Positions 116 through 24,304 of a DNA stretch of 39,542 nucleotides are shown in pieces (within the stretch, counting starts at the first letter, position 1; each line of letters begins with the position of its first letter). The notes under the pieces are model-generated. The model made no database searches. It was not told where the DNA came from and was given only the letters and a program-made list of their open reading frames with translations. The translations under genes and the position numbers were made by a program. This DNA is from a virus. The stretch is taken from positions 1-39,542 of IMG/VR virus record IMGVR_UViG_3300032931_000509; one strand, given 5' to 3'.

Positions 116-1444
116 TCATAGCCTGTATAATATCAAGTAAGTATCTGCCGTTCCTACATTTATATCCACAGTATTGGCCCCGCAGTTCACGTAACCGCGA
201 AGCGTGATATAGTCATCCGCATCTAACAAAACGACATCCTGAACCGTCACGGATACATCGGTAGTCGCCGCCCCGTTCTGCTGAGACCGCGTGGCGGTGG
301 CGGTTGTCCCGTTCTTGTAGATTTGGGCGTAATAAGTTTTTTCGGCGATCGCGTTTTCGTATGTGATCTGCCCGATTATTATGTAGTAACCAGCCACCGC
401 CGGCGTGATCTTATAGCTCGACAGGTTCGTTATCGTGCCCGAATCAAACGTATCGGTATCTAATGTGATCGTTGTCCAGGTCACATCGGTAAGATTCGCC
501 TGGGCGGCCGTCCCGTACATCCTGGCATAAGGCTTGTGGGCATCGTCGGCGTACTTCTTATTCACGATCATAGCATCCGTCGAAGGTGCCGCCGTCGAGG
601 CCATCAGGCTCGCATCGGCTACCGTAGTAATGCCTGAGAGCGTCGTAGTGCCGCTGAACGTCTTATTGCCCCCCACGGTCTCATTGCCCGTCAATCCGAC
701 CGCCCCGAGCGTTGTACGGGCCGCCGCAGCCGTCGCATCGTCGATCACAGTCTCGGCAAACGCCGATATCGTCGGAACCGCCAGCGTCGTTTTCGCCGCG
801 GCGGCGTCGGCATCGTCAAGAACGGTTCCCATAAACGCGCTAACCGACACCGATCCGGTCGGCACGGCGTCAAGGGCAGTGAAGTTGCCGCTCGAATCGA
901 ACCCTAAAACCGTCGAGGCCCGTTGAACCGAATCGTCTAAATCCGTCGTTATCGAGGTATCGGAGATCGGGATCCGCGGAGCCCGGCGTATTTCCTCCTG
1001 AAGCTCCTGTACGATCCGCGTCAGTTTATCCAGTGCCGTCTGCATAGCCGAAAATCGCAGGGCGCCCGTATCTCTCAGGTTGGTATTCTGTGTCTGCGTG
1101 GTTCTCCTGCTGAGCGAAATCGTATAGTCGCCGCTATATGTCGCAACGGTTGTGACCGTTCCGCCCGATGAATAGTCGTTATTTACCGCCGAAACGGTAT
1201 ATTCGTTTGTCTCTACCAGGACATCTTCGGCTCCCGTCAAGATCGTTCGCAGCGTTACAATCACCTCGCTCGTCGCCGAGACGGGGAAATCGAACGTGAA
1301 CGCGACGGAGCTGCCGTTGCAAGCCTGCGGAGTCTCTTTCGACTCAGTCTCCGTTACAGTTGCGAACGCCGCCGAACACATCATTAGCGCAATCAAAACC
1401 AGCAGCCGTTGAACCTTGAACCTTGAACCTTGAACCATTTTCAT
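116..1444 (-). CDS. Tail fibre with T7-type N-terminal attachment domain, C1q-like tip and signal peptide
   Basis: Probable host-recognition fibre, 442 aa. The start at 1444 is chosen because AAAGGA lies just upstream; an in-frame ATG at 1519 would overlap the preceding gene. Residues 1-30 form a Sec signal peptide (positive n-region, hydrophobic core, AFA cleavage site). The n-region is encoded by a GGTTCAA repeat. Residues 30-150 match the pattern of T7 gp17-like fibre attachment domains: strands, then an RRTTQTQNT motif, then a helix ALDKLTRIVQELQEEI. The middle contains repeated Ala/Thr-rich stretches. The last ~130 residues look like a C1q/TNF-type trimeric jelly-roll (GYYIIIGQITYENA, DDYITLRGYV), suited to binding a surface ligand. 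A signal peptide on a tail fibre is unexpected. The family call is firm; the tip fold is an inference. Confidence 0.8.
   Translation of the reverse strand: MKMVQGSRFKVQRLLVLIALMMCSAAFATVTETESKETPQACNGSSVAFTFDFPVSATSEVIVTLRTILTGAEDVLVETNEYTVSAVNNDYSSGGTVTTVATYSGDYTISLSRRTTQTQNTNLRDTGALRFSAMQTALDKLTRIVQELQEEIRRAPRIPISDTSITTDLDDSVQRASTVLGFDSSGNFTALDAVPTGSVSVSAFMGTVLDDADAAAAKTTLAVPTISAFAETVIDDATAAAARTTLGAVGLTGNETVGGNKTFSGTTTLSGITTVADASLMASTAAPSTDAMIVNKKYADDAHKPYARMYGTAAQANLTDVTWTTITLDTDTFDSGTITNLSSYKITPAVAGYYIIIGQITYENAIAEKTYYAQIYKNGTTATATRSQQNGAATTDVSVTVQDVVLLDADDYITLRGYVNCGANTVDINVGTADTYLILYRL
1407..1437. repeat. GGTTCAAG repeat overlapping a signal-peptide start
   Basis: About four units of an 8-nt GTTCAAGG-type repeat read as coding sequence from codon 3 of the tail fibre gene (VQGSRFKVQR). 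The same family occurs at 27958-28020 and 35565-35597 between genes. Confidence 0.7.
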
Positions 1445-1458
1445 TTTACGTCCTTTCG

Positions 1459-4400
1459 TTACCTTATTATTTTCCTCATTCCTCGCTGGTTCTTTTTCTG
1501 AGACCCCTGTCCGAACCACCAGTAATATTCCTCACCGACGATAGGAACACTTCGCCACAACTCCCATCCCCGGTCCTTGCCCATCGCCGTATTAATTATG
1601 TCCCGGGACAGGGCATCGATAGCTTTGGTCGGCGGCCGCCATCCTTCGAGTATCGCCGTTCCGAACCCCTTTTCACGAGTCCGCCATGCCTGGTACTTGG
1701 AGAAAAAGACCATTCTCAGGATGTTATCCGTCATCGAATCACTCAGGCTGAACTTCCGGCCGCGTATGAAGTCCTTCAAAAGGTCGCTTCCGCAGCCCAT
1801 AAGAGCAAATGCGAAAGTCAGCCAAACTAATTTGCCGAAACCGCGGGCGAAAGTGTCCTTCGATTTCATATCCTTAAAGCATTCGTTTCTCACATAATCG
1901 AGCCTTCGAATATAGAAGCTCTTAAGAGAATACGCCAACCGCCAACTACCGGCCTTGGCATAGGATTCCGGCATTTCGCTTATCGCCAATGGCTGAATAT
2001 CCAAAAGCTCATTGAAAAGAAGGTACTTGATATTGTCGGTAATCTCGCCTTTCTTCAAATCGGCTATAACATTCTGGTATTCTTCGCCGAATACCCGTTG
2101 CATTCTCTTGACAAAATCAGGATTAAGTTCGGCGTTTCTCGCCTGGCTTCGGTACTTTCGAAGTACCGTATTGATATCATTTTCCTTATTGAGTCGGTCG
2201 ATCTGCTCGAAGCCGATGGATTTCAATAGCGTACTGAGTGCCTTGTGCATACTCGGACCCTGAAACTCCTCACCTATTGAAACGATACCTATATCCCTGG
2301 ACGTCACTTCCGAACGCCGGGCTATGGTTGTAATGAGTGCCGGGATCGAGTGCCATGGGCTCTTGTAAAACGAATATGCAAACTCGTCGAGCTGGGTAAT
2401 GGCCTGCAATGGCGAATTCAGCGTATCGATATATACGCCCGATGATATCATCGAAGTAATTCTGCCCATCCCCGTCGGATCAAATATTCCCATCAATATG
2501 TCCTGAATCTGCTTTTCCTGAGCCGGCTGAATCAGTCCCGCCCTTCTTACCCGGTCGATATACCCGCCTATCGTATCGGTCAGTGGCCGGGCCTTGAGTC
2601 TTGTCAGCCGCTCGTTGGTAGCCATCCATGCCTCGTATGTCTTCGAAATATGCTCCTTGTAAGTTTCTTCCGGCGCCCCTTTGAGCCCGACCCGCCGTTT
2701 CAGTTTCGTCAATCTCGTTAATCTCGCCCTTTGTGTTTTTCTCAGGGCCTGGATCAGTTTGGTCTCGCGGCCGAAGAACTCACGTTCCCCGATCTTGGCC
2801 GTCATCAGTTTGATATATTTGAATACCGCGGTCAGTGAATCCTCGTAGAATGAATCGAGTTCCGCCGTCACCGATTCCACCGTCCGCTCCTTCGCCGGGC
2901 CGGGCCGAGACAGCATCAGGTTCTGCAACTGGTAGCCGCGCATGAGAACGTTAATATCCTGAGCGATCTCATCCGGCGTCATATCCCGGATCTCCCGTCC
3001 CGCCTGCTCCGCGCGCTTCTTAATCATCTCCTCTATAATCGACCAGTCATCGCGGCCCTGGAAGTACATTAAGAACCCCTCTTTATCGCTCAGGATTCTC
3101 GGCCAGTAGTTCTTCATATACTCTATTTTTATCCCGACGTCCTTGGCCGCCTCGTATATTTCATCCAGCGCGGCCCGGGCCTTCTCGTAATCGGCCTGGA
3201 TTCCGTACTTTTCGGTCAGTTCGGCGATTTTCCAGTTGATCCCGTTCTTTAGGGCCAGGTCCATCTGCCGCCGGTCCGTCTTATCCATCTTTTTGATATC
3301 GTGGACGAACGGACTGACCTCATCGGACAGCCAGACGGTCCTGGTCATCTGGTCGTAAACGTATTTTCTCGTCGCCTGGAATAGTTTCGGTGCGATATTG
3401 AACAGTCTCGTCGACATCGGCGTAAACTTCTTTTCGAGAGCTATCCACGCCCGTTTCGCCTGCGATGATGCCTTATCCCGAACATCCCGGCCCTTGACGG
3501 CCATATTCCGGTCGAACCATTCCTTATCATAGACCGGCCGAACAAGCGTCCTTGTCGATTTCGGCAACTCCTCGGCCCCGGGAATGGCCGAGCCGATCAC
3601 TTTATCCAAATGCTCCGGCAGTAAATCCGGCCTCAACGCCGGCGTCACTTCCCGGATATTTATCTTGAATCTCCGGATCGCCGGGCCTTTTTTCCTTGTC
3701 TTACTCGGTATGAGCGCCTGCTGGGCCTTCAATCTCGCCTTGCGGCCCTCTATCTGCGCCCTGAGCTCGGCCTCCCGCCTCAGCCGCTGGCCGGAAGTCT
3801 CAAATTTTAGATTTTCGATTTTCGATTGCTTCTCAATTGCCTCCGCCGCCCCGCCTGTAATTAGTTTTACTTGTTCTTCAGGAGTGAACATTTTTATCAC
3901 ATTCTGCAAACCACCGACAAGCATCCGTAAGTGCTCTGGTGAGTATAATTTAGTACCGGCTGGCGCCTCATCGTACAGAGTCTGCAATGGCGGCAATTTT
4001 TCAAATATATCGGGGTTTTTCCTGCACATTTCCTGATAAAACAGAGTAAGCCGTTGAACGGCGTTTGCAACCTCTCCCTTTGAAGCCGTCTCCAGAAATA
4101 CATCCACATTGTTCCCCTGAATTAGTGTGGCCGGTTTATCCCCTAATTTCTTCCGCTCTGTCTGGGCGGAAGCTTGGGGTGCGGCGAGAATATCTTTTTC
4201 TTCTGTGGGAGCAATAATCTCTATATCGTCACGAATGAATTCTTTCAGAGACACGTAGATGGAATTTAACTTCTCTTGATATGTGAATGTAGGGTCATTC
4301 ATATCTCGGTCTATCGTACCACCCAGATATGAAATCTGACCTTTGGTAAGGTATCCACTCGCTTCTAACTTAGCCGCCACCTTGTGCGTAAGTCCTTTAA

Positions 4401-7400
4401 CAGCAATCAAACTACTTATATCTGCATTAGTTAATCCTAATGTCTTGGCTTTTCGAGTAACTTTTACCTGCTTGCCCGCCGCACCGCCCTGCAGAACCGG
4501 CCGGCCTAAAAGGTCTGTCTGCCTCTTTGCAACCTTTCCCGTCACCGACTCCCCGAATATATCCTCGACCGTTCTGAACCCCTTGCCCTGCAGGGATGAC
4601 TTGATCTTCGCAAGAATTTTCCTGATCTTCTCGAATATCTTTCGTATTGCGTTCGTTGGCGCCTTATTCTCTTTATAGAACCGCCCGAACGCCGCGGCCT
4701 CCAGCTCCTCGCCCCTCAGTCCGGGCCCGTACTTATCCATCAGCGTCGCCAGGTCATCGTCGGTCAGTCTGCTTCGAAGTAAATGCCAGCCCTCATGTGC
4801 CCCCGTCTCAATATCCGCCCCGAGCGCCAATTGGATCACCTGCCGCTGGCCCTTAGTCATTGCCGCCCCGGTCGCCTTGCCCTGCCGCCTCTGGAATGGA
4901 ACATCGTCCTCGTACTCTATCTCTTCGACCTTCTCGACCTGAGCCTCGATACCATTGGCCTCAAGAACGTCCTTCGCCGCGTTCTGGGCCGCGAGCTGGT
5001 TCTCAGCCAATATCTGCTCGGTCGCCAGCCTTTCGAGTTCCGCATCCTGCTCATCTTCCGAAAGTTCGGCGATCTTCTGCATCTTATCGGCGTTCACAAA
5101 CTCATCCATCACCGACTCGATGGGAACATCGTTCCGCTCCGCCCATTCGGTAATCATCTCGTTAATCTCGATATCCGATGATCCGTGCCGGAGCATGCGG
5201 AACTTCTCGGCTAACATCTCGGCATCCGGGTATCCGCTGGCTGCGAAATTATTTAGTGCTGCCGTATTAAGGCCGGAAGCCTCGGCGCCCGATTCGAAGG
5301 CATCGGCCACCCGCTGCACGAACTCCGACAGTTCCATATCACCGTGGGTATCGTACTCGCCCTGCTCCGTCTCTGTGTAAAGGCCCTGCTGAACGGCGAC
5401 GTCCCATGCCGTCGCCCGGCCGCTCGTGGCATCGGCACGGTCGAAGGTGAACATCTTCTGAAGTTTCGTCTTGAACTTGCCCGGTTTCATCTCCCCGATT
5501 ATCGCCTCGACCTCACCCCGCCCTGACTCCTCGACGTAATAAAATCCCGGCCCGATCTTCCGGCCTGAAACATCCTGTGCCGCCACCTCATTCTGATAAA
5601 TATCGTGAGCCTTAATCCTCTCCGCCGTCTCCTTGATAAGTGATTTTCGACGTTTCTTGGTAATCCCGGAAAGTTGCTCATCCGTTTCGCCCGCTTCGCG
5701 TTCCTCCATCTTCTCGCGAAGCGAGTCAATTTCTGATTTACGATTTACGATTTCCGCTTGTTTTTCAAGTGCCTTGACCGGACTCAATTGTTTGGTGCTA
5801 AAAACGGCTAATGTTCTGCCTGCATTCACATCATCCTGATATTCTATGCTGTCATAACCCAACTTTTGAAGTTGTGGGATTATGATTTTCTCCCACGCTT
5901 CTTGTTTTTCCTCCTGTGTGTTTTGCCACCAGTAAAGCAAGTCCTTTGTCTCAATTATTCTCTTTGCCATTGGATTTCCTTTGTCCTTGAGCCCCGACAT
6001 GACTTTCAGACCTGCTTTATCGATTACTAATGTATTTTTCGCCTCCACGTTATAAACATCGACTTTTTCTAAATCTCTTTCCAATTGTCCCGATTCTTCA
6101 TACTCATTAAATTCTTCTTCTGTCTGAGGGATACCTCCCGCCACATATGTTGCGGCGACGTGTTTATTTTTGGTTAAAGCGATTAAACCCTTAGTCCTTT
6201 TTGCCTCTTTTAACACCCCCGCACCAGTATCACCGCGATAATAAATATTTTTCTCTGTGCCCTCTGTGGCTAATTCTTCACCCTCGGCGGGGGCTAAGTC
6301 GGGATACTCGACGACCGGCGTTACTTCTAAATCGGTTTGGGGACTCCAAAATATCCTGACTATGTGAGGTTTCCCTTTTATCTGAAGGCCGCCTTTATGT
6401 TTATAACCAACATAACCTTGCCCCTGTAACATTTTGGTAATTTCATTAAAAAGATATGTTCCCTCATCGGCGGATACATTATTATTAGTAAACTCTGCCC
6501 GCATCGTGTCATATAATTCACGAAGATTTTTGGTGTCTTCTTTATAGTCCGGATCAGTAAGTATGTAATCTAATTCCCATTCTTTAAGAAGTGGCATCAA
6601 GTCTGTTTTGATTTTAGCGTCTAAAGGTTTTTCCATATCATACAAATGTTGTTCTGCATCGGGCGAAACTTTCACTTTATATACCGTCGGGGTAGTTCCC
6701 TTGCCTTTTTTGGTATAACCCTCCGCAACGCTTTCAGTATCTGTGGTATAAAAACCTTGCCCATAGATATTCAATCCGTTCCAAGTATCTTCTAGTGGAT
6801 TCTTGATTTGTTCGATTGATTGACTTGTACCGTGGTAAACAGTTCCCCCTTGTTTCTCTGTACCCTCTGTGGCTAATTCTTCAGCCTCGCCAGGAGCGAC
6901 GATCTCGGTCGGGGCGGTCTCTTTGCCCTTACCGGCCTGAGTTTGGCCTTCCTGCGCAATGCTCGCCAAGTGCCGGGCCGCCTGCTCGTCTAATTCGTCA
7001 ATCTGCCGCTGAAATTCATCTTTTTCCGGACCTTTCTCCAATGCCTCGGCCTCGGCGGCCATTCTCTGCCTCATTTCCGACCACGGGATAATCAGGGCCT
7101 TAACCCTTCTTGCGTATTCCGCCGGCGATTTTACGTGGACTATGCCCTCTTCTTCCTCGGCTTCGTAAGGAACCGTTTCTTTCCATTTTTCTGTGATTTG
7201 GATTAGATTCAGGCCGCCCTGCATGCCCCATCCGCCGAGAAATCCGCCGGCGACTTCCCATGGTGACTGTTTAAGCGATCCTAAAATAGCCTTTTTCGCA
7301 GCCTCATAGCTCGACATTCCCTTCTTTGTGTTTTCAAGGATCCCGGCCCTCGTGTTTTGGAGCATCCCGGTAAAGAACTCCTCGGCCCCTTCCTTAAAGC

Positions 7401-8613
7401 CCGCCGATACAGCCTTCGTGCTTTCCCCTATTCCTTCGAGAAAATGAGACTCCATAAAGTACTCGATACCGCCGTCGGCAATACCGTGCAATGTGCTCCA
7501 AAAGAAGTTTTCCTCCTGTTCCTGGGCATGTTGAAATCCGCCGGCCGCCGATAATCCCGATAACAGGAGCAATCCCCGGTTGAGCTGGAACCCCTTGTTT
7601 AATATTTCCGCACCCGCCGTCGCGCCGCCCGAAAGGTACATTGCGAGAACGGACAGTGCGCTTGAAGCCAAACCCTCGCTTATTCGGCCCGCACCGTAGG
7701 AAACTGGGTCTATCTTCGCCAGGGCCGGATCGAGTGCTTCCCACCCGTAAGCCGCCTGCTCCGCCCATGCCAGCCGTGATTGCTTTCCCCACTTCGATAT
7801 ATTCTGCCCGGTCGATATAACGGCCTCGGCAAGTGGATTATAGATTTCATTTTTATTCTTCGATCCCAACTTTGAAAGCTGGTCAATCGCATACCCGCCC
7901 TGTTCGACGAACTGCCCAAGCCAGTCGTAAGCCGTGCCGCCAACCGCTCCGCCAACGCCCGACTCGGCAAAACGTGCAATTCCCTTGCCCGCCTCCTTCA
8001 AGGCTGTAATGGGATGCAGGGGAATATTCGGGGCCGTTTTCCTGGTAATGAAAGGCGAAAAACCGCCCATGCCCGCGGCAACGTAAGGATACCGCATAAT
8101 TTCTTTTCTTTCGGCGAGTTCCTGTTTCTCGCTTTCAATATCTACAACCGCTTTTGCAAAGCCGAGAATAACATCCGAGGCCTTCGTATTTACCGCTATT
8201 ATAGAAGCAGGAATGCCAACAGGAGAGGGCGATATCGAAAGAAACGATCCCAGAGTCGTCTTAAATGCATCAATCATCTGCTTGTTTATTTTCTCGTGGG
8301 TATCGTCGACAGGAAATGCTTGTCTTTTCAGACCTGTTTTTCCCTCGATTTCCGGGCCAAGATCATAAGCCAGTTCGGGCGGAATGCCGTACTGGCTGCT
8401 GTAATAAATGCTGTTTTCAATCTTATCGCGGAACGGCTCGAACTGCTCGGGCAAATCCTCCATCGATACACCCATCCCGCTGCCGGCGATCCGCTCGGAT
8501 ATATCCGGATCGGGTATCTCCGTCGATGTATCGTCCAGCACGAATCCTTCCGGCGGATCCTGTATTTCGTCTAATACGAATCCTTCCGGCGGTTTTATGG
8601 TATTGGTATCCAT
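1459..8613 (-). CDS. Giant polyvalent ejection protein: two ADP-ribosyltransferase-like domains plus metallopeptidase
   Basis: A 2384-residue protein in the slot of T7 gp16, so probably packaged in the head and ejected with the DNA. It starts with two near-identical PPEGFVLD repeats. Hydrophobic segments lie near residues 105-150 and 305-345. Two ADP-ribosyltransferase-like domains follow: residues ~592-770 (YHGTS, then GQGFYTT) and ~788-945 (YYRGD, then LGYDSIEYQ). Residues 1273-1277 are HEGWH, a zinc-metallopeptidase HExxH motif, with a possible third ligand in EELEAAAFG. The last ~400 residues resemble the conserved C-terminal region of large polyvalent proteins (LPD38-like) and end in a hydrophobic segment near 2255-2275. 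These domain types are known in polyvalent proteins thought to disarm host defences on entry. Repeats at 6251, 6854, 5728 and 3801 sit at domain joints. Its start overlaps the preceding stop by 19 nt. Confidence 0.8.
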   Translation of the reverse strand: MDTNTIKPPEGFVLDEIQDPPEGFVLDDTSTEIPDPDISERIAGSGMGVSMEDLPEQFEPFRDKIENSIYYSSQYGIPPELAYDLGPEIEGKTGLKRQAFPVDDTHEKINKQMIDAFKTTLGSFLSISPSPVGIPASIIAVNTKASDVILGFAKAVVDIESEKQELAERKEIMRYPYVAAGMGGFSPFITRKTAPNIPLHPITALKEAGKGIARFAESGVGGAVGGTAYDWLGQFVEQGGYAIDQLSKLGSKNKNEIYNPLAEAVISTGQNISKWGKQSRLAWAEQAAYGWEALDPALAKIDPVSYGAGRISEGLASSALSVLAMYLSGGATAGAEILNKGFQLNRGLLLLSGLSAAGGFQHAQEQEENFFWSTLHGIADGGIEYFMESHFLEGIGESTKAVSAGFKEGAEEFFTGMLQNTRAGILENTKKGMSSYEAAKKAILGSLKQSPWEVAGGFLGGWGMQGGLNLIQITEKWKETVPYEAEEEEGIVHVKSPAEYARRVKALIIPWSEMRQRMAAEAEALEKGPEKDEFQRQIDELDEQAARHLASIAQEGQTQAGKGKETAPTEIVAPGEAEELATEGTEKQGGTVYHGTSQSIEQIKNPLEDTWNGLNIYGQGFYTTDTESVAEGYTKKGKGTTPTVYKVKVSPDAEQHLYDMEKPLDAKIKTDLMPLLKEWELDYILTDPDYKEDTKNLRELYDTMRAEFTNNNVSADEGTYLFNEITKMLQGQGYVGYKHKGGLQIKGKPHIVRIFWSPQTDLEVTPVVEYPDLAPAEGEELATEGTEKNIYYRGDTGAGVLKEAKRTKGLIALTKNKHVAATYVAGGIPQTEEEFNEYEESGQLERDLEKVDVYNVEAKNTLVIDKAGLKVMSGLKDKGNPMAKRIIETKDLLYWWQNTQEEKQEAWEKIIIPQLQKLGYDSIEYQDDVNAGRTLAVFSTKQLSPVKALEKQAEIVNRKSEIDSLREKMEEREAGETDEQLSGITKKRRKSLIKETAERIKAHDIYQNEVAAQDVSGRKIGPGFYYVEESGRGEVEAIIGEMKPGKFKTKLQKMFTFDRADATSGRATAWDVAVQQGLYTETEQGEYDTHGDMELSEFVQRVADAFESGAEASGLNTAALNNFAASGYPDAEMLAEKFRMLRHGSSDIEINEMITEWAERNDVPIESVMDEFVNADKMQKIAELSEDEQDAELERLATEQILAENQLAAQNAAKDVLEANGIEAQVEKVEEIEYEDDVPFQRRQGKATGAAMTKGQRQVIQLALGADIETGAHEGWHLLRSRLTDDDLATLMDKYGPGLRGEELEAAAFGRFYKENKAPTNAIRKIFEKIRKILAKIKSSLQGKGFRTVEDIFGESVTGKVAKRQTDLLGRPVLQGGAAGKQVKVTRKAKTLGLTNADISSLIAVKGLTHKVAAKLEASGYLTKGQISYLGGTIDRDMNDPTFTYQEKLNSIYVSLKEFIRDDIEIIAPTEEKDILAAPQASAQTERKKLGDKPATLIQGNNVDVFLETASKGEVANAVQRLTLFYQEMCRKNPDIFEKLPPLQTLYDEAPAGTKLYSPEHLRMLVGGLQNVIKMFTPEEQVKLITGGAAEAIEKQSKIENLKFETSGQRLRREAELRAQIEGRKARLKAQQALIPSKTRKKGPAIRRFKINIREVTPALRPDLLPEHLDKVIGSAIPGAEELPKSTRTLVRPVYDKEWFDRNMAVKGRDVRDKASSQAKRAWIALEKKFTPMSTRLFNIAPKLFQATRKYVYDQMTRTVWLSDEVSPFVHDIKKMDKTDRRQMDLALKNGINWKIAELTEKYGIQADYEKARAALDEIYEAAKDVGIKIEYMKNYWPRILSDKEGFLMYFQGRDDWSIIEEMIKKRAEQAGREIRDMTPDEIAQDINVLMRGYQLQNLMLSRPGPAKERTVESVTAELDSFYEDSLTAVFKYIKLMTAKIGEREFFGRETKLIQALRKTQRARLTRLTKLKRRVGLKGAPEETYKEHISKTYEAWMATNERLTRLKARPLTDTIGGYIDRVRRAGLIQPAQEKQIQDILMGIFDPTGMGRITSMISSGVYIDTLNSPLQAITQLDEFAYSFYKSPWHSIPALITTIARRSEVTSRDIGIVSIGEEFQGPSMHKALSTLLKSIGFEQIDRLNKENDINTVLRKYRSQARNAELNPDFVKRMQRVFGEEYQNVIADLKKGEITDNIKYLLFNELLDIQPLAISEMPESYAKAGSWRLAYSLKSFYIRRLDYVRNECFKDMKSKDTFARGFGKLVWLTFAFALMGCGSDLLKDFIRGRKFSLSDSMTDNILRMVFFSKYQAWRTREKGFGTAILEGWRPPTKAIDALSRDIINTAMGKDRGWELWRSVPIVGEEYYWWFGQGSQKKNQRGMRKIIR
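3801..3828. repeat. AAATCGAAAATC-type repeat inside the polyvalent gene
   Basis: A/T-rich short-period repeat of the AAATCATAAATC family, read in frame as KIENLKFE. It lies at a joint between a more A/T-rich stretch (about 3840-4450) and the G/C-rich downstream part. Confidence 0.5.
5728..5755. repeat. AAATCGTAAATC repeat closing the second ART-like domain
   Basis: Three units of the AAATCATAAATC family, encoding EIVNRKSEID immediately after the end of the second ADP-ribosyltransferase-like domain (FSTKQLSPVKALEKQA). Confidence 0.6.
6251..6279. repeat. CTCTGTG-family repeat, linker before second ART-like domain
   Basis: 29 nt that differ by a single base from 6854-6882. Encodes EELATEGTEK just before the second ADP-ribosyltransferase-like domain (IYYRGD). 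Belongs to the CTCTGTGTCCTCTGTGGC family that is intergenic elsewhere in the window. Confidence 0.8.
6854..6882. repeat. CTCTGTG-family repeat, linker before first ART-like domain
   Basis: Second copy of the 29-nt linker repeat, one mismatch to 6251-6279. Encodes EELATEGTEK immediately before VYHGTS, the opening motif of the first ADP-ribosyltransferase-like domain. Confidence 0.8.
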
Positions 8614-10127: not shown

Positions 10128-10141
10128 AATATATCCTGGAG

Positions 10142-10615
10142 TTAAGTTTTAATTTTACTCATCGCGTATGTGCTTGCCATCTGTGACGCCCCGCCGAACA
10201 GGGCCGTCCACACGCCCATCTTGCCCGCCCGGGCCGCCGACTTCGCCTCCATCCGGTAAATCTCGGCCATATCCTCCGACCGCCGGGCCTGCGACTCGCC
10301 CTCGAACCCGGTCCTCGCGATATCGTAGGCGTAATCGTTAATCACCTGCAACTGGTGCTCGGCCGGCGAGCCGGTCATCATCATCCCGCTGCCCGCCGTT
10401 ATCTCCCTGTTGGCCGCAAGGGTGCGCCTCATCTCGATACGTTTGAGCCGCTGGGCCTCGGCGGCCTGGTCCCGCGTAGCCGCCGCCTCGCCGAGCGCTA
10501 ATTGCGATTTATACTTGCCTAACGCCTCGGCACTCTTACCCTGCTGGTTCACTGCCACCGCCTGCACGGTCGCCCCGGCGGCCATTATTGCATAAGGTGC
10601 CCACGGCATAATCAA
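10142..10615 (-). CDS. Internal virion protein, T7 gp14-like
   Basis: A 157-aa protein with the usual gp14 layout: a short hydrophobic Ala/Gly-rich N-terminus (PYAIMAAGATVQAVAV), then a long helix rich in Ala, Gln, Arg and Glu, then a second small hydrophobic stretch (WTALFGGASQMASTYAM). Such proteins sit in the inner core and form the outer-membrane part of the ejection channel. The start overlaps the preceding stop as ATGA; an ATG two codons later at 10609 is an alternative. Order and layout make this fairly secure. Confidence 0.7.
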   Translation of the reverse strand: MIMPWAPYAIMAAGATVQAVAVNQQGKSAEALGKYKSQLALGEAAATRDQAAEAQRLKRIEMRRTLAANREITAGSGMMMTGSPAEHQLQVINDYAYDIARTGFEGESQARRSEDMAEIYRMEAKSAARAGKMGVWTALFGGASQMASTYAMSKIKT

Positions 10616-11049: not shown

Positions 11050-11083
11050 ATTTATTATTTACTATTTATTATTTACTATTTTT
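11050..11083. repeat. AATAGTAAATAATAAAT repeat used as a leader and as a 3' end
   Basis: About four units of a 7-8 nt repeat fill the junction between two genes. On the minus strand it supplies the last codons and TAG stop of the gene ending at 11062, and then abuts the ATG at 11049 with no ribosome-binding site. Confidence 0.8.
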
Positions 11084-15674: not shown

Positions 15675-18275
15675 TCACGGATCATCTCCTTCCGCATTCA
15701 GCGTCGCCGTCCCGCCGCCTCCGCTGGCGGCGGTCCGGTCTATCGTTATAACCCCCGGCGGCGGTGTGACCGGCTGGTTGTCGTAAACATCCATAGGAAA
15801 GTACCCCATGCCCCACAAGATCACCACATCGTCCACCGCGGGTGTGAATGAGAATGGCAAATCGACCTCCACTATCCGCCCCGCCGTCCATTCATAGACC
15901 GTTCTCGACTCCCAGTGGGCATCCGTAGCATCCCGAACGTAGATCGTCGCACCGCGATAGGCGTCCGCGGCCGCTGCGCCCGCCGTGAGTGTGAAACTGT
16001 TGGCGTCGTTATCATCTGCCACCGTAGTCGTTAAGGCCCGCATGACGTCCGTAACGGCCTTAATCAAAGTGATGTTCGGGTCTAACTGCTGGACTTCACC
16101 GCCGAAACTGGCCTCGGTTGTATAGGTTGCCATCAAAGCGTTCCAAATCGCCGCCGCGTGCTCGGCGTCGGTATCGTAGGCCGCCGTATCAGCCAGAACA
16201 TCCTCCGCCGCCTGGCCATAAGTCCCCGCCCCGCCGTAACTGCCCGTCGCCGCGTTCCAGATCGCCGCCGCGTACTCCGCCGCCGTATCGAAAGCCGAGG
16301 TATCGGCCAGAATTAAAGTGATGTTCGGATCGAGGCCACCCATTTCTCCACCGAAGGTTGTTTCGCCCGTATAACTTGCAACTAAAGCACCCCAAATTGC
16401 CGTTGCGTATTCAGCGTCTGTATCATAGGCAGTTGTATCCGTTAGAATTGAATCTATATCCGTATCGTGGTTATCAACATCGGAACTGCCCATGATTTTA
16501 TTCGTCGGCAGTTTGCCTTGAATGGCCGCTGTATCCTCCAGAATAGATACCGTCTCAGCCTTCAGTGCAATTATATCGGCGGCAATGTCAGTACCAGTCG
16601 CGTTTGTGATCGTCGCTGCGTAAATCGCCGAGAGTAAAGTTGCCTGTGGTGGAAATTCCAAGTTCCAGACTACTGGAGCGGAAACTGTGAAATCATCGAC
16701 AACGTGAGTATCACCACCATAAGTTAACGTGAACGTATGCGGGCTATAAGTCAGAAGTGCTTCGGATGTTCCAATCCACTTCTTGTAATCTATCGTCTGT
16801 TCGGCAATGTCACCACCTGAATCTGTTGCCACACTAAATTCCGAAGCCGCTGCAACGTAAGCGATTCCAGTTACCCATGCCCCTGTACCAGCACCACCAA
16901 CACATCCTGCCTTCGCAGCATAAGCCGCCGTCGTCAGCACCCATTTGTTTGCAGTAAGGTCTGTAGCGAATACTCCCGATGTGTGGTCGAGGATACATTT
17001 ATAGAAAGTCGAACCGGCATCAGTCGAGACTACATTCCCAAACGTCTGGCATTGAACTGTGACCGTTTCGAGGTCTGCACCATCTTCATCTGCTACGTGG
17101 ATATTGCAAGTTTGCTTTCGAGTGCAACTGGCAGTTGCATTATTTATAATAATACTACTTATTGTAAAATCAGGGTCTATTAAATTTAATGAAGTATCTA
17201 CCTCAGTAACATAAACTTCCACATAGCCAGAATCAGTGATTTTAAGATTGGATATCGATGGCGTAGCACTGCCATAAGAAGACAACCCATAAAACACATC
17301 GTGCAGATGAATATTAGAAAATGTAGGAGTAACATATGCAGTGATGCTTTGCAACCCCATGCTTTTAACATCTGTCCATGTTGTCGTCCCACCACCAATA
17401 ACCACTACAGCTCCTGGAAAACCGGATATACCGGAAAATATACTATTGCGAGCAATCCATGTTCCATTAGTCTGTTGAAACCATGCTCCGATTACATCTC
17501 GCCGAATAATCATCGAACCATATATACCAAACTCAGCAGTCGCACTGGCTAAGAAAGCAAAATTTTCATCTAAATCGAACGACCATGCCGAACCCGTTTT
17601 ACTCCAATCACCTGAAGATTCACCTAAATCGAGTGTTGCGTTTGCTTTAATAGAAAAGTGGGAGTAATTTTCCCAGTATACAAATTCATGTGCAGACCGA
17701 AAATAAGTGGCCGTCGAGCCATCACCGAACTCAACATCACAATCAATAAGATAACTTCCATCAGCAACAATCTCCCACACCACACCCCAGATGTCCTGTG
17801 TAACCGCTATCGTACCATCGGCCCAGACAGTTCCGCCACCAGCGGCATTGTCAGAACAATCAAGATTAGTTATCGTCTTAAACCGTTTGGTAGTTGTATA
17901 TGTGCCGTTTCCTGCCGTAACGTCGAGAGATTCCGTCTGTGCCGTGTCCCACGCATCCGTTCCTGTGATGAAGATAAAATCCGCCTCGGCAGTCTTGGCA
18001 GCAACGATACATTTGATTATCAAAGCCTTTGAATGAGTAGGTCTTATCTGGTAATCGAGAGTAACATTTGCCGCACCATTCTCTGCGACGTTCAGGACAG
18101 TCCCCGTCCCTGCCTGGTCAGCCGTATACATATCGTTGAACGTAGCCGGAGCACCGGATGTTCCATCCGTAACAACTATCTTATTCGTCGCTACTGTATA
18201 TGCGAACGTACCAACGCCGAAAGCCGGACTAACAGCAAATAGCAAACAGCAAATAGAAAATAGCAGCCTTTTCAT
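15675..18275 (-). CDS. Large secreted beta-rich fibre/appendage protein
   Basis: 866 aa, probably a virion-associated fibre or host-surface binding protein. The signal peptide ends at AFG; its core LLFSICCLLFAV is encoded by a CTATTTGCTGTTTG repeat. Residues ~150-380 have the short-strand rhythm of a right-handed beta-helix (SMIIRRDVIG, NGTWIARNSIF, ISNLKITDSG). Near the C-terminus are three tandem units of about 45 residues (LADTAAYDTDAEHAAAIWNAL type), encoded at about 16060-16450. A compact C-terminal domain (RIVEVDLPFSFTPAVDDVVI) follows. It overlaps the preceding gene by 4 nt (ATGA). The function is inferred from position among tail genes and beta-rich composition. Confidence 0.65.
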   Translation of the reverse strand: MKRLLFSICCLLFAVSPAFGVGTFAYTVATNKIVVTDGTSGAPATFNDMYTADQAGTGTVLNVAENGAANVTLDYQIRPTHSKALIIKCIVAAKTAEADFIFITGTDAWDTAQTESLDVTAGNGTYTTTKRFKTITNLDCSDNAAGGGTVWADGTIAVTQDIWGVVWEIVADGSYLIDCDVEFGDGSTATYFRSAHEFVYWENYSHFSIKANATLDLGESSGDWSKTGSAWSFDLDENFAFLASATAEFGIYGSMIIRRDVIGAWFQQTNGTWIARNSIFSGISGFPGAVVVIGGGTTTWTDVKSMGLQSITAYVTPTFSNIHLHDVFYGLSSYGSATPSISNLKITDSGYVEVYVTEVDTSLNLIDPDFTISSIIINNATASCTRKQTCNIHVADEDGADLETVTVQCQTFGNVVSTDAGSTFYKCILDHTSGVFATDLTANKWVLTTAAYAAKAGCVGGAGTGAWVTGIAYVAAASEFSVATDSGGDIAEQTIDYKKWIGTSEALLTYSPHTFTLTYGGDTHVVDDFTVSAPVVWNLEFPPQATLLSAIYAATITNATGTDIAADIIALKAETVSILEDTAAIQGKLPTNKIMGSSDVDNHDTDIDSILTDTTAYDTDAEYATAIWGALVASYTGETTFGGEMGGLDPNITLILADTSAFDTAAEYAAAIWNAATGSYGGAGTYGQAAEDVLADTAAYDTDAEHAAAIWNALMATYTTEASFGGEVQQLDPNITLIKAVTDVMRALTTTVADDNDANSFTLTAGAAAADAYRGATIYVRDATDAHWESRTVYEWTAGRIVEVDLPFSFTPAVDDVVILWGMGYFPMDVYDNQPVTPPPGVITIDRTAASGGGGTATLNAEGDDP
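18232..18266. repeat. AGCAAATAGCAAAC repeat encoding a signal-peptide core
   Basis: Four units of a 7-8 nt repeat, read on the minus strand as the hydrophobic core of the signal peptide of the 866-aa protein. A shorter relative (GCTATTTGCTG) lies at 26109-26126. Confidence 0.8.
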
Positions 18276-18601
18276 TTCTTTGCCGGTCTCCAGTCCAGGA
18301 GTTTCGCTACGTTCGGGTCGCTAAAGCCGGTATTGGCATCCTTAACGACCTGCCACGCCTTAATCAACGTCGCCTTCAGCTCGGCATCGACAGTATTGAA
18401 CGAGCCGCTTTTCGCAATCTCCTGAAGTTGTGTACTCGTTTCCTGAATGGTACTTCTCGCGTTTTGCAATAATGCCCGTGCCGTAATGACTTTCTGCCGC
18501 TGCTCGGCATCGGTCACAAGCGAGCCAAACTTCGTATCAACTGCCGCCCAGACCGCCGAAGCAATTAACAGAACCAGTCCGATTTCAATTATTCGTTTCA
18601 T
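18272..18601 (-). CDS. Small secreted helical protein
   Basis: 109 aa, not recognised. Residues 1-20 form a textbook signal peptide (MKRIIEIGLVLLIASAVWA). The mature part is a predicted long helix or coiled coil rich in Gln, Ala and Lys (AEQRQKVITARALLQNARS), ending in DWRPAKK. An AGGAGAAAGA ribosome-binding site lies upstream. The stop overlaps the next start as ATGA, coupling it to the 866-aa fibre protein, so a chaperone or trimerisation partner for that protein is possible but unproven. Confidence 0.6.
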   Translation of the reverse strand: MKRIIEIGLVLLIASAVWAAVDTKFGSLVTDAEQRQKVITARALLQNARSTIQETSTQLQEIAKSGSFNTVDAELKATLIKAWQVVKDANTGFSDPNVAKLLDWRPAKK

Positions 18602-18774: not shown

Positions 18775-19722
18775 TTAGTACGGCCGCCCGTAAACCTTCA
18801 GATTGCCCGCCTCCTCGCCCGTCGCGGCGTCGCAGTCGTAGAACACGAACTGGATATACTCTAATCCCGCCAAGTCGATAACGAGCATTGCCACCTCGTT
18901 ATCACCCGAATTAAATACACCTACACCCGGCTCGCTTACTACCGTGCCGTTATAGCCCGGCCACTTCGTCTGCTCGTCGATCGCTATCGTATCCGCCCAG
19001 AAGGCCGGGTTGATCTGGATCGTGGCGTCCGTGCCGTTGCCGGTCGAGGTAGTGATATCGCAAACCACCGAATCGTTGCCGGTAACTGTCGTGATATTCA
19101 CAATCTCGCTCGTAAAACCCGTGCCCGTCACGCGGGCCATCATCCCGGCCACGACATCGTCGAAACTATTGCTCAGTGTGAATGTCTCCGATGCGTGGGT
19201 ATAGGCCACGCCCGTCAAACTTACCAGCTCGCCGAGCGCATCGCCGCCGTCCGGGTACTTTACTACCGCCTGCGTGCCGAGGACACCGTTGCCCTCGCAG
19301 ATATTCTGCTGCATCCCGTTGCCCCTGGCCCACCCGACCACGTTGAAGCTGAACGTATCGTCGGTATCGTTGAAACAATTGCCGCAAATTACAAAGACCC
19401 ACTTCGTCCCGGGCGCGTATGGTGTATCGCTGCCCACGCTGCGGGAAGGTATTCGAAACGCTCCGCCCAAAGCGACCCCTGTATCGTCCATACCATCGTA
19501 GTCGCACGTCAGTGTCGCGCTGACGCCGGTCCGGTCGTAGACGGCGGCAAAGGTATCGCCATCCTGGCTGGCCTTCGCCCTGACAAGGTTCCAGCCTGTA
19601 TGGTACTGGTCCACCGGCTCGGCCCGGACAATCGGCATTAAACACACCACCATTGCGGCCGCCAGGACCAGCAAAACAGCTACCGCCGTTATCACCCTGC
19701 CATATCGTTTTATCGTTTTCAT
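18775..19722 (-). CDS. Secreted beta-rich protein of unknown function in the tail module
   Basis: 315 aa. Residues 1-35 are a long signal peptide (MKTIKRYGRVITAV, hydrophobic core, VRA cleavage). The mature part is Gly/Thr/Asp/Val-rich with short strands and a single central repeat-like segment (ARVTGTGFTSEIVNITTVTG), typical of phage decoration or fibre domains; it has two Cys in CGNC. AAGGAGA lies at good distance from the start. It is placed between the gp11-like adaptor and the small secreted protein, so it probably belongs to the virion or to a surface-binding layer. No family was recognised. Confidence 0.6.
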   Translation of the reverse strand: MKTIKRYGRVITAVAVLLVLAAAMVVCLMPIVRAEPVDQYHTGWNLVRAKASQDGDTFAAVYDRTGVSATLTCDYDGMDDTGVALGGAFRIPSRSVGSDTPYAPGTKWVFVICGNCFNDTDDTFSFNVVGWARGNGMQQNICEGNGVLGTQAVVKYPDGGDALGELVSLTGVAYTHASETFTLSNSFDDVVAGMMARVTGTGFTSEIVNITTVTGNDSVVCDITTSTGNGTDATIQINPAFWADTIAIDEQTKWPGYNGTVVSEPGVGVFNSGDNEVAMLVIDLAGLEYIQFVFYDCDAATGEEAGNLKVYGRPY

Positions 19723-19733
19723 TTTTTTTCTCC

Positions 19734-20396
19734 TTAAATATCAAATTCCAAATTATTCGGCCTCATAAACCCGTCCCGGATATCCTTTTGCCCATCCAGC
19801 AAATCCCGGCCTTCGATATCGACGTCCATACCCTCAAGCCCGTTGGCGTACCGGGCCGTATCCATCGCCGTATCCAAATCCCGCTGGAGCGACATCTTCC
19901 GGTAATCGTTCTCCGCTATCGGCGCGCACATTTCTATCGCACCCGTCAGGATGACGAGTTTCGTGAACCACGCCCGCCAACTCCCGGGATTCGTGCGCAG
20001 AACGATGTACTTAACGAATACTTCATCCTGATCGCACAAAAGAACATCATCCTGTACAACCTTGCCGTTCTCGGTATGGCAATAGACCCCGATCTCGTAT
20101 TCGTAATGGATGTCCCTGTAGTTTTCATCAATCGTCGATATGACCCTCACGCATCCGTCCGGCAGCTTGTATTGATGGTCGTAGCCCAATGCCGGATCCG
20201 TCGCTACCTTCGCTAATTCCGCGTGGGCCGTCGCGAAATGCCATTCAATCGGCAAAGCAAAGACCTCGGCGACGATACCGTCGAAGATATCGTTCGCCAG
20301 CCGCTGGCTCTTCGAATCGGTGCCTAACGAAGCCAGCGTCGTTTCCCCGATACATATCATCATCCGGTTAACTACGTAAAGTTTATCGAACGCCAT
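19734..20396 (-). CDS. Tail tubular protein A (T7 gp11-like adaptor)
   Basis: 220 aa. The pattern fits the adaptor ring that connects the portal to the nozzle in short-tailed phages. It has an N-terminal helix with SKSQRLANDIFDGIVAEVF, then PIEWHFATAHAEL, a sheet with YKLPDGCVRVISTID, then VFVKYIVLRTNPGSWRAWFTKLV and a C-terminal helical region. There is no signal peptide, unlike the genes on both sides. GCGGAG supplies the ribosome-binding site. It should interact with the portal (28735-30489) and with the nozzle proteins. Confidence 0.75.
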   Translation of the reverse strand: MAFDKLYVVNRMMICIGETTLASLGTDSKSQRLANDIFDGIVAEVFALPIEWHFATAHAELAKVATDPALGYDHQYKLPDGCVRVISTIDENYRDIHYEYEIGVYCHTENGKVVQDDVLLCDQDEVFVKYIVLRTNPGSWRAWFTKLVILTGAIEMCAPIAENDYRKMSLQRDLDTAMDTARYANGLEGMDVDIEGRDLLDGQKDIRDGFMRPNNLEFDI

Positions 20397-20410
20397 TTGT
20401 CACTCCGCAA

Positions 20411-20442: not shown

Positions 20443-20446
20443 AAAA

Positions 20447-20491
20447 GGGCGGGAGCCGGGAAACAGGGGGAGCTAATGCCCGGTCCCGCCC
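20447..20491 (-). terminator. Strong G/C hairpin, probable terminator after the beta-helix gene
   Basis: An 8-bp stem (GGGCGGGA with TCCCGCCC) plus 5 more pairs (CCGGG with CCCGG) after a bulged G, around an 18-nt loop. On the minus strand it follows the beta-helix stop and is itself followed by TTTTAATTT. This fits an intrinsic terminator or attenuator between the head and tail genes. The downstream T-run is short, so read-through is likely. Confidence 0.55.
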
Positions 20492-20500
20492 TCAAAAAAC

Positions 20501-23500
20501 TTATTGCGGTATGACCTCACAACCATTCTCGACCGGCGTGAAGATCATGTACCACTCAATCTCGCCGGTGGAACCGCCGCCAGATACATTGGACTCAAGC
20601 ATACCTTCTTCTACCCACCAGTTTATACCTGGACCCATAGAACCACTTGAACCAACAGCTTGTACGGTCAAAACGCTTTCTCCTATTGCAGCAGTAAAGG
20701 CAAGAATTCCACCTGCATCGATTGTATCAACATCAACGCCTGTACTCAGATCGTAATCCCAGGTATCGTCTGCATCTACCTGAATTTCCAACGTAGTCGC
20801 CCCGCCGCAAGCTACTGTTGCTTTGCCGACGAAACTCGTTACTACAATAGGAGCACCAGTCACCAGAAACAAATCATCCAGTGCGTTCAAGTCACCAAGC
20901 TTCATACATCTCGTATAGGACTTGCCTGCTATAAGCGGTATGTCTTCGGCACCAGTATCAACTCCGACACACTGTTTGTTGCCGAAACAACGCAACGAGC
21001 CTGGATCGAGAATCGATCCGTAGGTACTGCCCGACAGCATGTTATCAATCAGATCGCCTGTAGTGGCGCCCGTGAACTCTATTGCACATTGACCGGAGTT
21101 GTTATTGGTCACTGAGTTGTTCTTAATCAGGGCGTTCGTATTGATCTGATCGCTGTAAATACCGGCATTTGTGAAATCACCCCAGATTCGGCAATTCTCT
21201 ATAATCAGCCTGTCGATTACACCCGTGGCGGCCGCAATGCCGGAAGTAGCTCCGGTTGTACCTGCAACAGACAACAGGCGGCAATTGCGTATCGTTGAAA
21301 GCTCGGCAGAGGCATCGAGACTAACAGTGATTGCAAACTCGAAATTACCGGCGTCTGTAAACAGGCAGTCTTCCATAGTAAAATCGGCCGCCGCAACATG
21401 AACCCCGATTGCTGTTGCCGCCGTACTGGAATGGAAGTTTATACCCTTGATCGTATTACTGGCGCCAGTAACGTCAAAGGACGAGTTTGCATGCTGCATA
21501 TCGACGAATGGCATATCTGTGCCGTCGCCGAGACCGATAATCGTTACACCTGCAGTTGCAAGAGCTACCTGGGCATCCGCTGAATGTGTCTCCGTATGCC
21601 CCGGGGCCACAAAGACTATGTCGCCCTTATTGGCTGTAACATCACCGTAACCCTGGGAAATCAAAGCTTCGGCAAGAGCCCATGAGATTCCTGAATTGGC
21701 TGTATTACCGGTCACACTATCGACATAATAAACGTCACCTATAGTTCCGCCTGCCATTCTCAAACCTGCAAGAATATCATCCGACTTGTTTTGGAGATAT
21801 TCGAGCCGTTCGAGATTGGAGCCGTCGCCAGTTTCCGTAATATCGGTCGTCAGGGCGCTGATAGGTATTTCAATGCCGGCTTCATCCAGAACGGACGAAC
21901 CCATATTGCCGCTGCAAATCATTGAGCCGGGGTCCAGCATCGTGGCAAACAACGGTGAAGAAAGCGTGTTGTTAGTCAGATTACCTGTAGTAGCCGCCGT
22001 AAATTCAACTGCTAATTGACCGGAAGTTAGTTGCGTGACCACGTTGTCTTTAATCAAGACATTGGTACAAATCTGGTCGCTCCAAATACCCGCAACCGTG
22101 AATGTTCCGAATATCCAGTTGTTGATAATTTTTATATTGTCTACAGCACCAGTCAGCTTGATACCTTCGGTCGCAGCATTTCCAGGCGTCAAAATTTGAC
22201 AACCTTCGATGGTCACGTCGTCACAACCCGCCGCAACGTCAATGGCATTGAGTATCTCGCTCGTTGTGGCATCTTCGAATATGCAGTTCTTGATATGACA
22301 ACCATCGGCAGTGGCCGCAAGATCAATGCCCTTCAAGATGTCCGTAGCACCCGCCAAAAACCTGATATTCTCAATGTGAACGTTTGCTACTGACACATCC
22401 CATTGATCCGCAGCAGTATCCAACGTGATAGTCGGCATGAGCGTAGCTTCGCCAAAACCTTTGATCGTAACACCGGCAACATTGATGGCAACGGCGGCGG
22501 CCAAAGTCTCCGCGTGGCCGGGTGCAACGTAGATAACATCGCCGTTACTGGCAGTTGCGGCCGCAATGGCCAATGCCACAGTCGTATAGGCATTTGTCCA
22601 AGTCTTGCCTAATTCAGCCGCAGTTGCAGATGTGCCGGTTTTGCCGGAATCGACGTACCATACACTACCAGAACCACCAAGCATTGTAACAACATCCGGA
22701 TTAGTCTCCGTCGTACGAACAAGCATTACCAGGTCGCCGGTAGTGACTGCCTGACTAAAAGCAGGTGCAACCGTAAAGACTCCTGTTGCCGTCACGTATG
22801 CGGTAATATCCCTGATTTCGCCTTCAGGAGCACCCGCCGCCGCACCGGCATCATAGACACAAATAGCAGACCAGCCGGTTTCGAAATAATTGGTTCCAAA
22901 ACCAGCCAGGCCAACCGAAGTAAAGTTGGTTGCTCCACCGGCGTTTACCTCGCAGGAATTGCGCATTCTCTGAGTGGTTAATGCAGCTACTTGAGCAGCA
23001 GTTGCACCAGCCGCTGCTGAGCCGAATAGTATGGTTTGCAATTTGGCAGTTGTGTCCCACAATGCCGTGTCCGAAAGGATAGCATCGAGATCTACATTCA
23101 ACGCCTGGAGCGACATTGTAGTATTGTCATAAGTTGCTACTGTTGCAGCCGCACCAATACCCATAATCTTGGCAAGTGTCGAATCGTTGGCTACCGTAGC
23201 AGGAAACGCATCAGTACCATCAGCCGTATAGTACAACTTCTTTAAGATGTCATCAGCTGAACCTGCTGTCACCGTAGCAATCGCTGATTCCGGCGGGAAT
23301 AGTTCTGCACTGAGGTCTATCGTATTGATGATATAGTTCTCAAAGCAGGCCAATGAACCTGGGTCTATCGCAGTAGCAACTGCATTGGTGTAAACAAGAT
23401 TTTCAGCAAGAATTCCCGTAGCTGCTTCTGTAAATTCCAGTCCGAACTGGCCCGCAGTCGCCTGGTGAACAACGTTGCCGGCCACCAGCATATTGGTATT

Positions 23501-24304
23501 CACCTTGTCGCTGTGGACGGCCGCCACGGTAAACGTTCCCTGGAACTCGTTGCCGACAATCAAAAGCCTGTTTACTATACCGGCATCACCGTTGATAGCC
23601 TGGTTGCACCCGGTAGTCGCTACGAGACTCATAAACTTGTTGCCTGCGATAGTCACAAAGTCACTGCCGGTAGCAAGCGTAATCATGTCTAAGAATTCCC
23701 ACGTTCCGGTAGTTGGAGTTACCCATTCGCAACCTGAGATTGTCAGATAATCGGCGCCTGCCGTAAGCGTTACCGAACTTACCACGTCAGTTGCTCCGCA
23801 AACAAACCGCAGGTTCTTAAGCATCACATTGGCTACTGAAATGTCGATGGTAGCCCCCGCGTGCGTGTACGTAAACGTCGGCATGTTGGAACCCTCGCCG
23901 ACTCCTTCGACGGTCACACCTATCTTATCGATTGTGGCGCCTAACGCCGCCGTCGACCACGTCTCCGCGTGGCCCTGGGCAACGTAAACTATATCCCCGT
24001 TATTGGAAGTGCATAGTGCAAAAGCCTCATCCAAAGTTGCTAAAGCGTTCGACCAGGAGCTGCCGTCGCCCGCGATGGTTAATCCGCTGTCGACGTAGTA
24101 AATATTTCCCGTCCCGATATTCGTCGCGCCGCCGCCGGCCGTCAGGGCATCTATCTCCTTCGCCCACCGCCAGCCGATGTCCTTCGCATTGCCGGTCCAC
24201 CAGTCGCCGTTCGGCTTACTGTAAATGTTCCATGATGTGGCGCCCTGGCCGAAGCATGGAAGAGCGATTGCGAGAATCGCCATGATTAGAATTGTTCGTT
24301 TCAT
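20501..24304 (-). CDS. Secreted triple-repeat right-handed beta-helix fibre
   Basis: 1267 aa, beginning with a signal peptide (MKRTILIMAILAIALPCFG). It contains three homologous units of about 270 residues at ~68-336, ~548-815 and ~858-1124. Each starts with YYVDSG or WYVDSG, then SW and NGDIVYVAxGHAET, a GVTIxGxG turn, many N-x-F/I ladder positions (MLKNLRFVCGA; HIENIRFLAGA), and ends DPGSxxCxxN. This is the signature of right-handed parallel beta-helices, often glycan-binding or glycan-cleaving. The C-terminal ~120 residues form a separate beta domain. G/C hairpins flank the gene at 20447 and 24342, so it may be an inserted cassette between cement protein and adaptor. The function as head fibre or receptor-binding appendage is inferred. 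Confidence 0.7.
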   Translation of the reverse strand: MKRTILIMAILAIALPCFGQGATSWNIYSKPNGDWWTGNAKDIGWRWAKEIDALTAGGGATNIGTGNIYYVDSGLTIAGDGSSWSNALATLDEAFALCTSNNGDIVYVAQGHAETWSTAALGATIDKIGVTVEGVGEGSNMPTFTYTHAGATIDISVANVMLKNLRFVCGATDVVSSVTLTAGADYLTISGCEWVTPTTGTWEFLDMITLATGSDFVTIAGNKFMSLVATTGCNQAINGDAGIVNRLLIVGNEFQGTFTVAAVHSDKVNTNMLVAGNVVHQATAGQFGLEFTEAATGILAENLVYTNAVATAIDPGSLACFENYIINTIDLSAELFPPESAIATVTAGSADDILKKLYYTADGTDAFPATVANDSTLAKIMGIGAAATVATYDNTTMSLQALNVDLDAILSDTALWDTTAKLQTILFGSAAAGATAAQVAALTTQRMRNSCEVNAGGATNFTSVGLAGFGTNYFETGWSAICVYDAGAAAGAPEGEIRDITAYVTATGVFTVAPAFSQAVTTGDLVMLVRTTETNPDVVTMLGGSGSVWYVDSGKTGTSATAAELGKTWTNAYTTVALAIAAATASNGDVIYVAPGHAETLAAAVAINVAGVTIKGFGEATLMPTITLDTAADQWDVSVANVHIENIRFLAGATDILKGIDLAATADGCHIKNCIFEDATTSEILNAIDVAAGCDDVTIEGCQILTPGNAATEGIKLTGAVDNIKIINNWIFGTFTVAGIWSDQICTNVLIKDNVVTQLTSGQLAVEFTAATTGNLTNNTLSSPLFATMLDPGSMICSGNMGSSVLDEAGIEIPISALTTDITETGDGSNLERLEYLQNKSDDILAGLRMAGGTIGDVYYVDSVTGNTANSGISWALAEALISQGYGDVTANKGDIVFVAPGHTETHSADAQVALATAGVTIIGLGDGTDMPFVDMQHANSSFDVTGASNTIKGINFHSSTAATAIGVHVAAADFTMEDCLFTDAGNFEFAITVSLDASAELSTIRNCRLLSVAGTTGATSGIAAATGVIDRLIIENCRIWGDFTNAGIYSDQINTNALIKNNSVTNNNSGQCAIEFTGATTGDLIDNMLSGSTYGSILDPGSLRCFGNKQCVGVDTGAEDIPLIAGKSYTRCMKLGDLNALDDLFLVTGAPIVVTSFVGKATVACGGATTLEIQVDADDTWDYDLSTGVDVDTIDAGGILAFTAAIGESVLTVQAVGSSGSMGPGINWWVEEGMLESNVSGGGSTGEIEWYMIFTPVENGCEVIPQ

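Follow-up and report, generated by a model that had tools for sequence, protein, structure and literature searches.

A podovirus of the T7/BPP-1 type, whose hosts are probably Phycisphaerae, seems on balance to build its virion in two compartments. The window, i.e., the whole stretch of DNA that was analysed, is an IMG/VR virus record of 39,542 bases, in which the structural genes all lie on the minus strand. Sec signal peptides (SPs) were predicted on the nozzle chains, the T7-type tail fibre and four further genes, and the boundary between the SP-less and the SP-bearing parts is the joint between the gp11-like adaptor and the nozzle. The simplest reading of this boundary is a two-compartment assembly, with joining on membrane opening. 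The genomes compared show predicted SPs that are restricted to these proteins, conserved, and repeatedly gained or lost. Translocation of the SP-bearing tail parts is, on the same sequence evidence, very probable, and we infer that the SPs are cleaved.

Signal peptides in the window

The preliminary description of this DNA had named eight genes with SPs and usable cleavage sites, and their starts exist as written. Designated by start position, these are as follows.

20501 to 24304, minus strand: 24304, beta-helix protein, predicted exported, 1267 aa; SP about 24304-24242, MKRTILIMAILAIALPCFGQG; weak NosD Pfam match
18775 to 19722, minus strand: 19722, predicted exported protein, 315 aa; SP 19722-19621
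18272 to 18601, minus strand: 18601, predicted exported protein, 109 aa; SP 18601-18545
15675 to 18275, minus strand: 18275, predicted exported protein, 866 aa; SP 18275-18216
14195 to 15634, minus strand: 15634, nozzle N-domain with inserted propeller; SP 15634-15527; phrog_376 matches
13773 to 14141, minus strand: 14141, nozzle N-terminal piece, 122 aa; SP 14141-14043; phrog_376 positions 6-92
11406 to 13763, minus strand: 13763, nozzle main piece, 785 aa; own SP 13763-13689; phrog_376 positions 93-710
116 to 1444, minus strand: 1444, T7-type tail fibre; SP 1444-1361; phrog_1640, 4e-12 (T7 fibre N-domain)

The SPs were identified by a rule-based caller, which looks for a positive n-region, an uncharged h-region and agreement with the -3/-1 rule. 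Calibrated on E. coli, it called 17 of 17 exported genes and falsely called 3 of 72 cytosolic ones. All eight genes were called, with scores of 40-64, which shuffled versions of the first 45 residues attain in 0-3.5% of cases. An SPase I-type -3/-1 site follows the h-region in each of them, and the N-terminal features of Sec preproteins, namely a positive n-region, an h-region and an SPase I site, are thus present in the window. The start of 1444 is an internal ATG of the ORF 116-1519, with AAAGGA upstream. Among the other window proteins, 1 of 29 was called, and that weakly (29.3). Outside the tail module, a gene cut at the record end (38850-39539, minus strand) has an internal start, MKTKIIVFAALLALSAGGAVHA, that gives a ninth SP-like leader.

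It had also been claimed that the terminase, portal, scaffold, capsid, gp11-like and internal-core proteins lack SPs, and the caller indeed finds none on them in the window. The main SP-less genes are given below.

31797 to 33344, minus strand: terminase large subunit; phrog_2, 1.5e-21
28735 to 30489, minus strand: portal; phrog_332, 2e-51
24896 to 25948, minus strand: major capsid protein; phrog_212, 1e-22
19734 to 20396, minus strand: gp11-like tail adaptor, the last cytoplasmic-type part; phrog_394, 4e-27
1459 to 10615, minus strand: internal-core genes (gp14-, gp15- and gp16-like by order); phrog_418, 8e-16 for 10142-10615

The nozzle, adaptor, portal, capsid and terminase belong to the families expected of a T7/BPP-1-like podovirus and stand in the expected order (phrog_376, 394, 332, 212 and 2). 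The tail proteins of such phages are customarily SP-less, which is not so here; judged by protein families, the eight predicted SPs lower the standing of the phage as an ordinary member, not its membership of the podoviruses.

The further claim that SPs are confined to outer tail and fibre parts has the backing of protein families for the nozzle pieces and the T7-type fibre. No match to a known tail family was found for 24304, 19722, 18601 and 18275 with PHROG and Pfam profiles, and these are putative tail-module genes by their position and SP-bearing homologues only. The gene 24304 occupies the slot between cement and gp11, where the Cobetia phage Carin1 has a head-spike gene (gp40); homologues occur in L025, L023, L027 and the Phycisphaerae MAG G008. 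The product of 19722 is 51-52% identical to the SP-bearing L025:4829-5785 and L023:5019-5915, the mature part being conserved and the leaders divergent; its AlphaFold model is poor (mean pLDDT 35). In L027, 18601 has an SP-bearing counterpart (39% identity) with the same neighbour order, and 18275 is 41% identical over 271 aa to the product of gene 5094-6314, which has an SP. Taken together, the accessory SP genes of the window resemble those of the core-clade phages at 35-52% identity, whereas the adaptor, portal and capsid do so at 22-30% or undetectably. The exported parts seem to travel between phages as a pool that keeps its SPs.

The split nozzle

Profile matches to phrog_376 indicate that one nozzle of the T7 gp12 type is encoded in two adjoining pieces, 14141 and 13763. 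The nozzle N-domain occurs once more in 15634, with the propeller inserted near position 67. In the distant relative L025, the counterparts are 9893-10273 for 14141 and 10273-12345, with its own SP, for 13763; the architecture of 15634 matches L025:7338-9935, with a different insert. In both phages the split falls at one and the same point of the nozzle profile (position about 98-101), and both pieces carry their own SP in each, the N-terminus of the downstream piece being internal in an ordinary nozzle. Without export of each chain, an own SP on an internal nozzle piece in two phages would be difficult to account for. On the downstream piece, a structural N-terminal leader would be needless, while an exported chain needs one; the split nozzle therefore favours export.

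Large adhesin-like domains (beta-helix-like repeats, laminin-G-like) are present in or just after the nozzle N-domain in L025:7338-9935 and in the nozzle N-regions of L027, L028 and L031, where the window has the propeller. These folds were assigned by eye, except for the propeller.

Signal peptides in related phages

A terminase relative (G001) encodes an intact nozzle that starts with MLKKLILILLLVSSAFG directly followed by YNPSITSFNAGQVSP. Viral contigs were scanned with this nozzle, giving the loci L021-L038; a viral scan with the portal as the query found no relatives. SP-bearing nozzles are found in 12 viral records and on a single contig assigned to a Phycisphaerae MAG (G008, JAQTMR010000018.1), usually along with SP-bearing fibres and accessory proteins. 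In 15 genomes, with the window included, SPs are present on 18 of 19 nozzle chains and 10 of 11 T7-type fibres (nine relatives have an SP-bearing fibre), against none of 76 terminase, portal, capsid, scaffold, adaptor, acetyltransferase-like and core proteins (adaptors 0/15, major capsid proteins 0/12). For nozzle and fibre together (28/30) against the other virion proteins (0/76), Fisher's test gives p = 1e-23, the sequences being related by descent and hence not independent. The automated caller missed L023 and L030, whose SPs are clear by eye. L028 is a weaker case, as the call there used an erroneous start further upstream and a TTG start is required. One relative genome is complete, with a 136-base terminal repeat, and has eight SP genes in its tail module.

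In the outgroup, 21 of 22 nozzles are SP-less, including those of cultured phages and of seven other Planctomycetota loci. The sole exception is L033, whose n-region is long. This distant phage (G780, GC 70%) has SP-like leaders on both nozzle and fibre, and its nozzle leader contains a tandem-like stretch, VNQVNEVNEV. In the nozzle tree, a clade with full support unites the 13 SP sequences with G160; the window and L033 are placed elsewhere, among SP-less nozzles. This requires at least three to four gains or losses of SPs, and nozzle export has thus been gained more than once or lost repeatedly. In G160, nozzle and fibre are both SP-less, and the genes beside them keep their SPs. Similarly, L034 and the putative Methanomicrobiales virus vir555 (BK063671) have SPs on accessory proteins and an SP-less nozzle, so the export of accessory proteins does not require that of the nozzle. 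In vir555, four consecutive SP genes lie at the genome end (L081:28278-33520) and one before the adaptor (14869-15384). It was also considered whether the host cell demands SPs in all Planctomycetota phages. This was rejected, as the seven other Planctomycetota nozzles, all full-length, have none, and as G160, which is closely related to the G008 MAG, has SPs on neither nozzle nor fibre.

Leader behaviour and predicted cleavage

Similarity is lower between the leaders than between the mature chains for 34 of 36 nozzle pairs and 29 of 36 fibre pairs, with the SP grammar kept. Predicted cleavage leaves 5-9 residues ahead of the conserved motif, against mostly 7-15 residues from Met in SP-less nozzles; cleavage would thus restore an ordinary nozzle N-terminus. 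The solved virion nozzle of Carin1 (8ck1), whose homology to the clade nozzle covers almost the full length, begins to align at residue 23 of the L020 nozzle, i.e., beyond the SP. The AlphaFold model of the L020 nozzle is poor (mean pLDDT 48). A periplasmic signature was not seen in the cysteine content of the mature nozzles.

Leaders made of intergenic repeats

A composite intergenic repeat (GTGTAAATCCGTGTC ... CTCTGTGTC...CTCTGTGGC) makes up the leaders of both 14141 and 15634; the copies are located as follows.

15525 to 15612, minus strand: composite repeat in the leader of 15634; repeats D6, D12
14040 to 14125, minus strand: host-type composite repeat forming the leader of 14141; CTCTGTGTC units read as LCV

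Read in frame, the 9-base unit CTCTGTGTC gives Leu-Cys-Val and provides a ready-made h-region. An intergenic copy in the MAG G008 (contig C1, near 239,500) aligns with the leader of 14141 over 77 columns. The repeat core has nine copies in G008 and is present in 3 of 61 sampled Phycisphaerae genomes, with zero matches in the reversed control; the composite form is found in 2 of 150 genomes. Short repeats are present in 13763 and 1444. The repeat content indicates that predicted SPs of the window were recruited recently from non-coding intergenic repeats. Copies of the CTCTGTG repeat also fall within the core gene that encodes 2384 aa (window 6250-6294 and 6853-6897); such repeats are thus tolerated in coding sequence.

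The sharing of the composite repeat between the window leaders and the G008 MAG points to a Phycisphaerae host. The G008 MAG also holds a related phage, and the related contigs in MAGs resemble phage genomes placed in the bins. Phycisphaerae are thus the probable hosts, through an indirect link and a repeat sampled in Phycisphaerae only.

Proposed assembly in two compartments and its alternatives

It is proposed that the head, the portal, the gp11 adaptor and the internal core would be made in the cytoplasm, and that the nozzle, the T7-type fibre and several spike/adhesin proteins would cross the inner membrane as Sec preproteins, lose their SPs and assemble outside it. DNA-filled heads from the cytoplasm would then join the tail parts at the gp11-nozzle interface, most likely when the inner membrane opens at lysis; on the place and time of this joining, our confidence is evenly divided. 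Lysis through Sec-exported enzymes is plausible, as two relatives encode lysis-type proteins with SLT domains, and chronic release might be another way for heads to meet the exported parts. The SLT transglycosylase-domain proteins in question (L111:2443-2877 and L114:6613-7113) have N-terminal export or membrane segments and are candidate Sec-exported endolysins of the clade.

Alternatively, the leaders could be uncleaved hydrophobic helices that anchor tail parts in the membrane or serve DNA entry, with nothing exported and cleaved. Some nozzle leaders are indeed short (14-18 aa), but the SPase I-type sites in all eight window genes, the free variation of leaders that keep only the SP grammar and the separate leader on the internal nozzle piece of two phages make this unlikely. 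A slightly less likely view is that the proteins are not virion parts when exported, and instead cover the surface of the producing cell or work in the medium (superinfection block, host polysaccharide binding), reaching the virion incidentally. Many exported neighbours are adhesin-like (beta-helix, Laminin_G_3), and other phages have individual tail-module proteins with SPs, as this view would have it; in related virions, however, the nozzle forms the conduit of the tail, and a second, SP-free full nozzle was not seen in the clade loci.

It is very improbable that misassigned starts or inserted dispersed repeats mimic SPs in proteins that truly start at the mature N-terminus. The dispersed repeat in the leaders of 15634 and 14141, the short repeats in 13763 and 1444, and an in-frame ATG at codon 40 of 15634, which has no clear ribosome site, lend themselves to such a view. 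Against it, 13763 has no ATG, GTG or TTG between the leader core and the conserved part, and the sole alternative start of 14141 is a GTG at the beginning of the leader core. No such repeat is seen by eye in 24304, 19722, 18601 and 18275, which have SP-bearing homologues, and in the relatives, where these repeats are absent, SPs occupy the same position. Mimicry by repeats was therefore rejected as a general explanation, and misassigned starts, which the preliminary description had named among its refutations, are contradicted for most genes. Least probable of all is a domesticated secreted structure in place of a phage. Phages do not usually export tail parts, yet the window contains genes for terminase, portal, capsid, internal core and integrase, and many related free viral contigs exist, one being a complete genome with terminal repeats. 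For this reason the earlier suggestion of an adaptation to a surface structure was dropped, and a tailocin-like secreted tail, in which head and packaging genes would be missing, was rejected likewise.

Export of the outer tail parts, the first of three options offered originally, is thus favoured. The pattern was looked for in related phages, as had been advised, and found there: SPs on nozzle and fibre recur with leaders that are unrelated in sequence, and two phages have a separate SP on the internal piece of the split nozzle. Stated for the whole lineage, the proposal is held at even strength: a tailed-phage lineage may assemble across the inner membrane, a nozzle-fibre-spike complex outside capping packaged heads at the gp11 ring, with nozzle export having arisen more than once and SPs having been recruited from intergenic repeats.

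Relation to known systems

Tailed-phage assembly is taken to be cytoplasmic. A lineage exporting nozzle and fibres would break this rule and offer a natural two-compartment assembly system, in which SPs arise from non-coding repeats. It would raise new questions on head sealing (how DNA is retained before nozzle capping), tail joining and release in Planctomycetota. The absence of SPs has served as support for a phage origin (PMC6199706); secretome filters may misfile such virion proteins as secreted proteins of the host.

In filamentous phages (Inoviridae), the virion proteins are Sec preproteins that are assembled at the membrane. An excerpt of PMC8310372 describes G3p of filamentous phage as such a preprotein. 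These virions are extruded and have no terminase, icosahedral capsid or tail, and the analogy is only functional; a filamentous phage identity was rejected, as terminase and capsid genes are present in the window. For Phage-ZRK32 (21.9 kb), from a cultured deep-sea Planctomycetes strain, a member of the same phylum, chronic, non-lytic release is claimed in excerpts of PMC10945688, which do not mention export of tail parts.

The gene order and virion protein families of the window are those of T7-, BPP-1- and P22-like podoviruses (nozzle phrog_376, adaptor phrog_394, portal phrog_332). Unlike in the window clade, nozzle and T7-type fibre are SP-less in T7, BcepC6B, HTVC010P, Carin1 and BUCT711. 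The open-access literature gave no described phage with an exported nozzle and fibre, in line with the novelty claimed originally. Predicted export of accessory proteins is wider than the clade, being found in BcepC6B, PBR31 and, with several proteins, vir555; the new element is that of nozzle and fibre. Burkholderia phage BcepC6B has one SP-bearing accessory protein in its tail module, gp19 (L089:20959-22032; MKKLIAILLAVPALALG...), and so has Xanthomonas phage PBR31, orf035 (L124:5932-6741; MKKLIALFSLFCTSAFG...). The SPs of these two cultured proteobacterial podoviruses have apparently gone unremarked; in the paper on PBR31 (PMC10975493), the sole protein said to have an SP is the esterase gp40.
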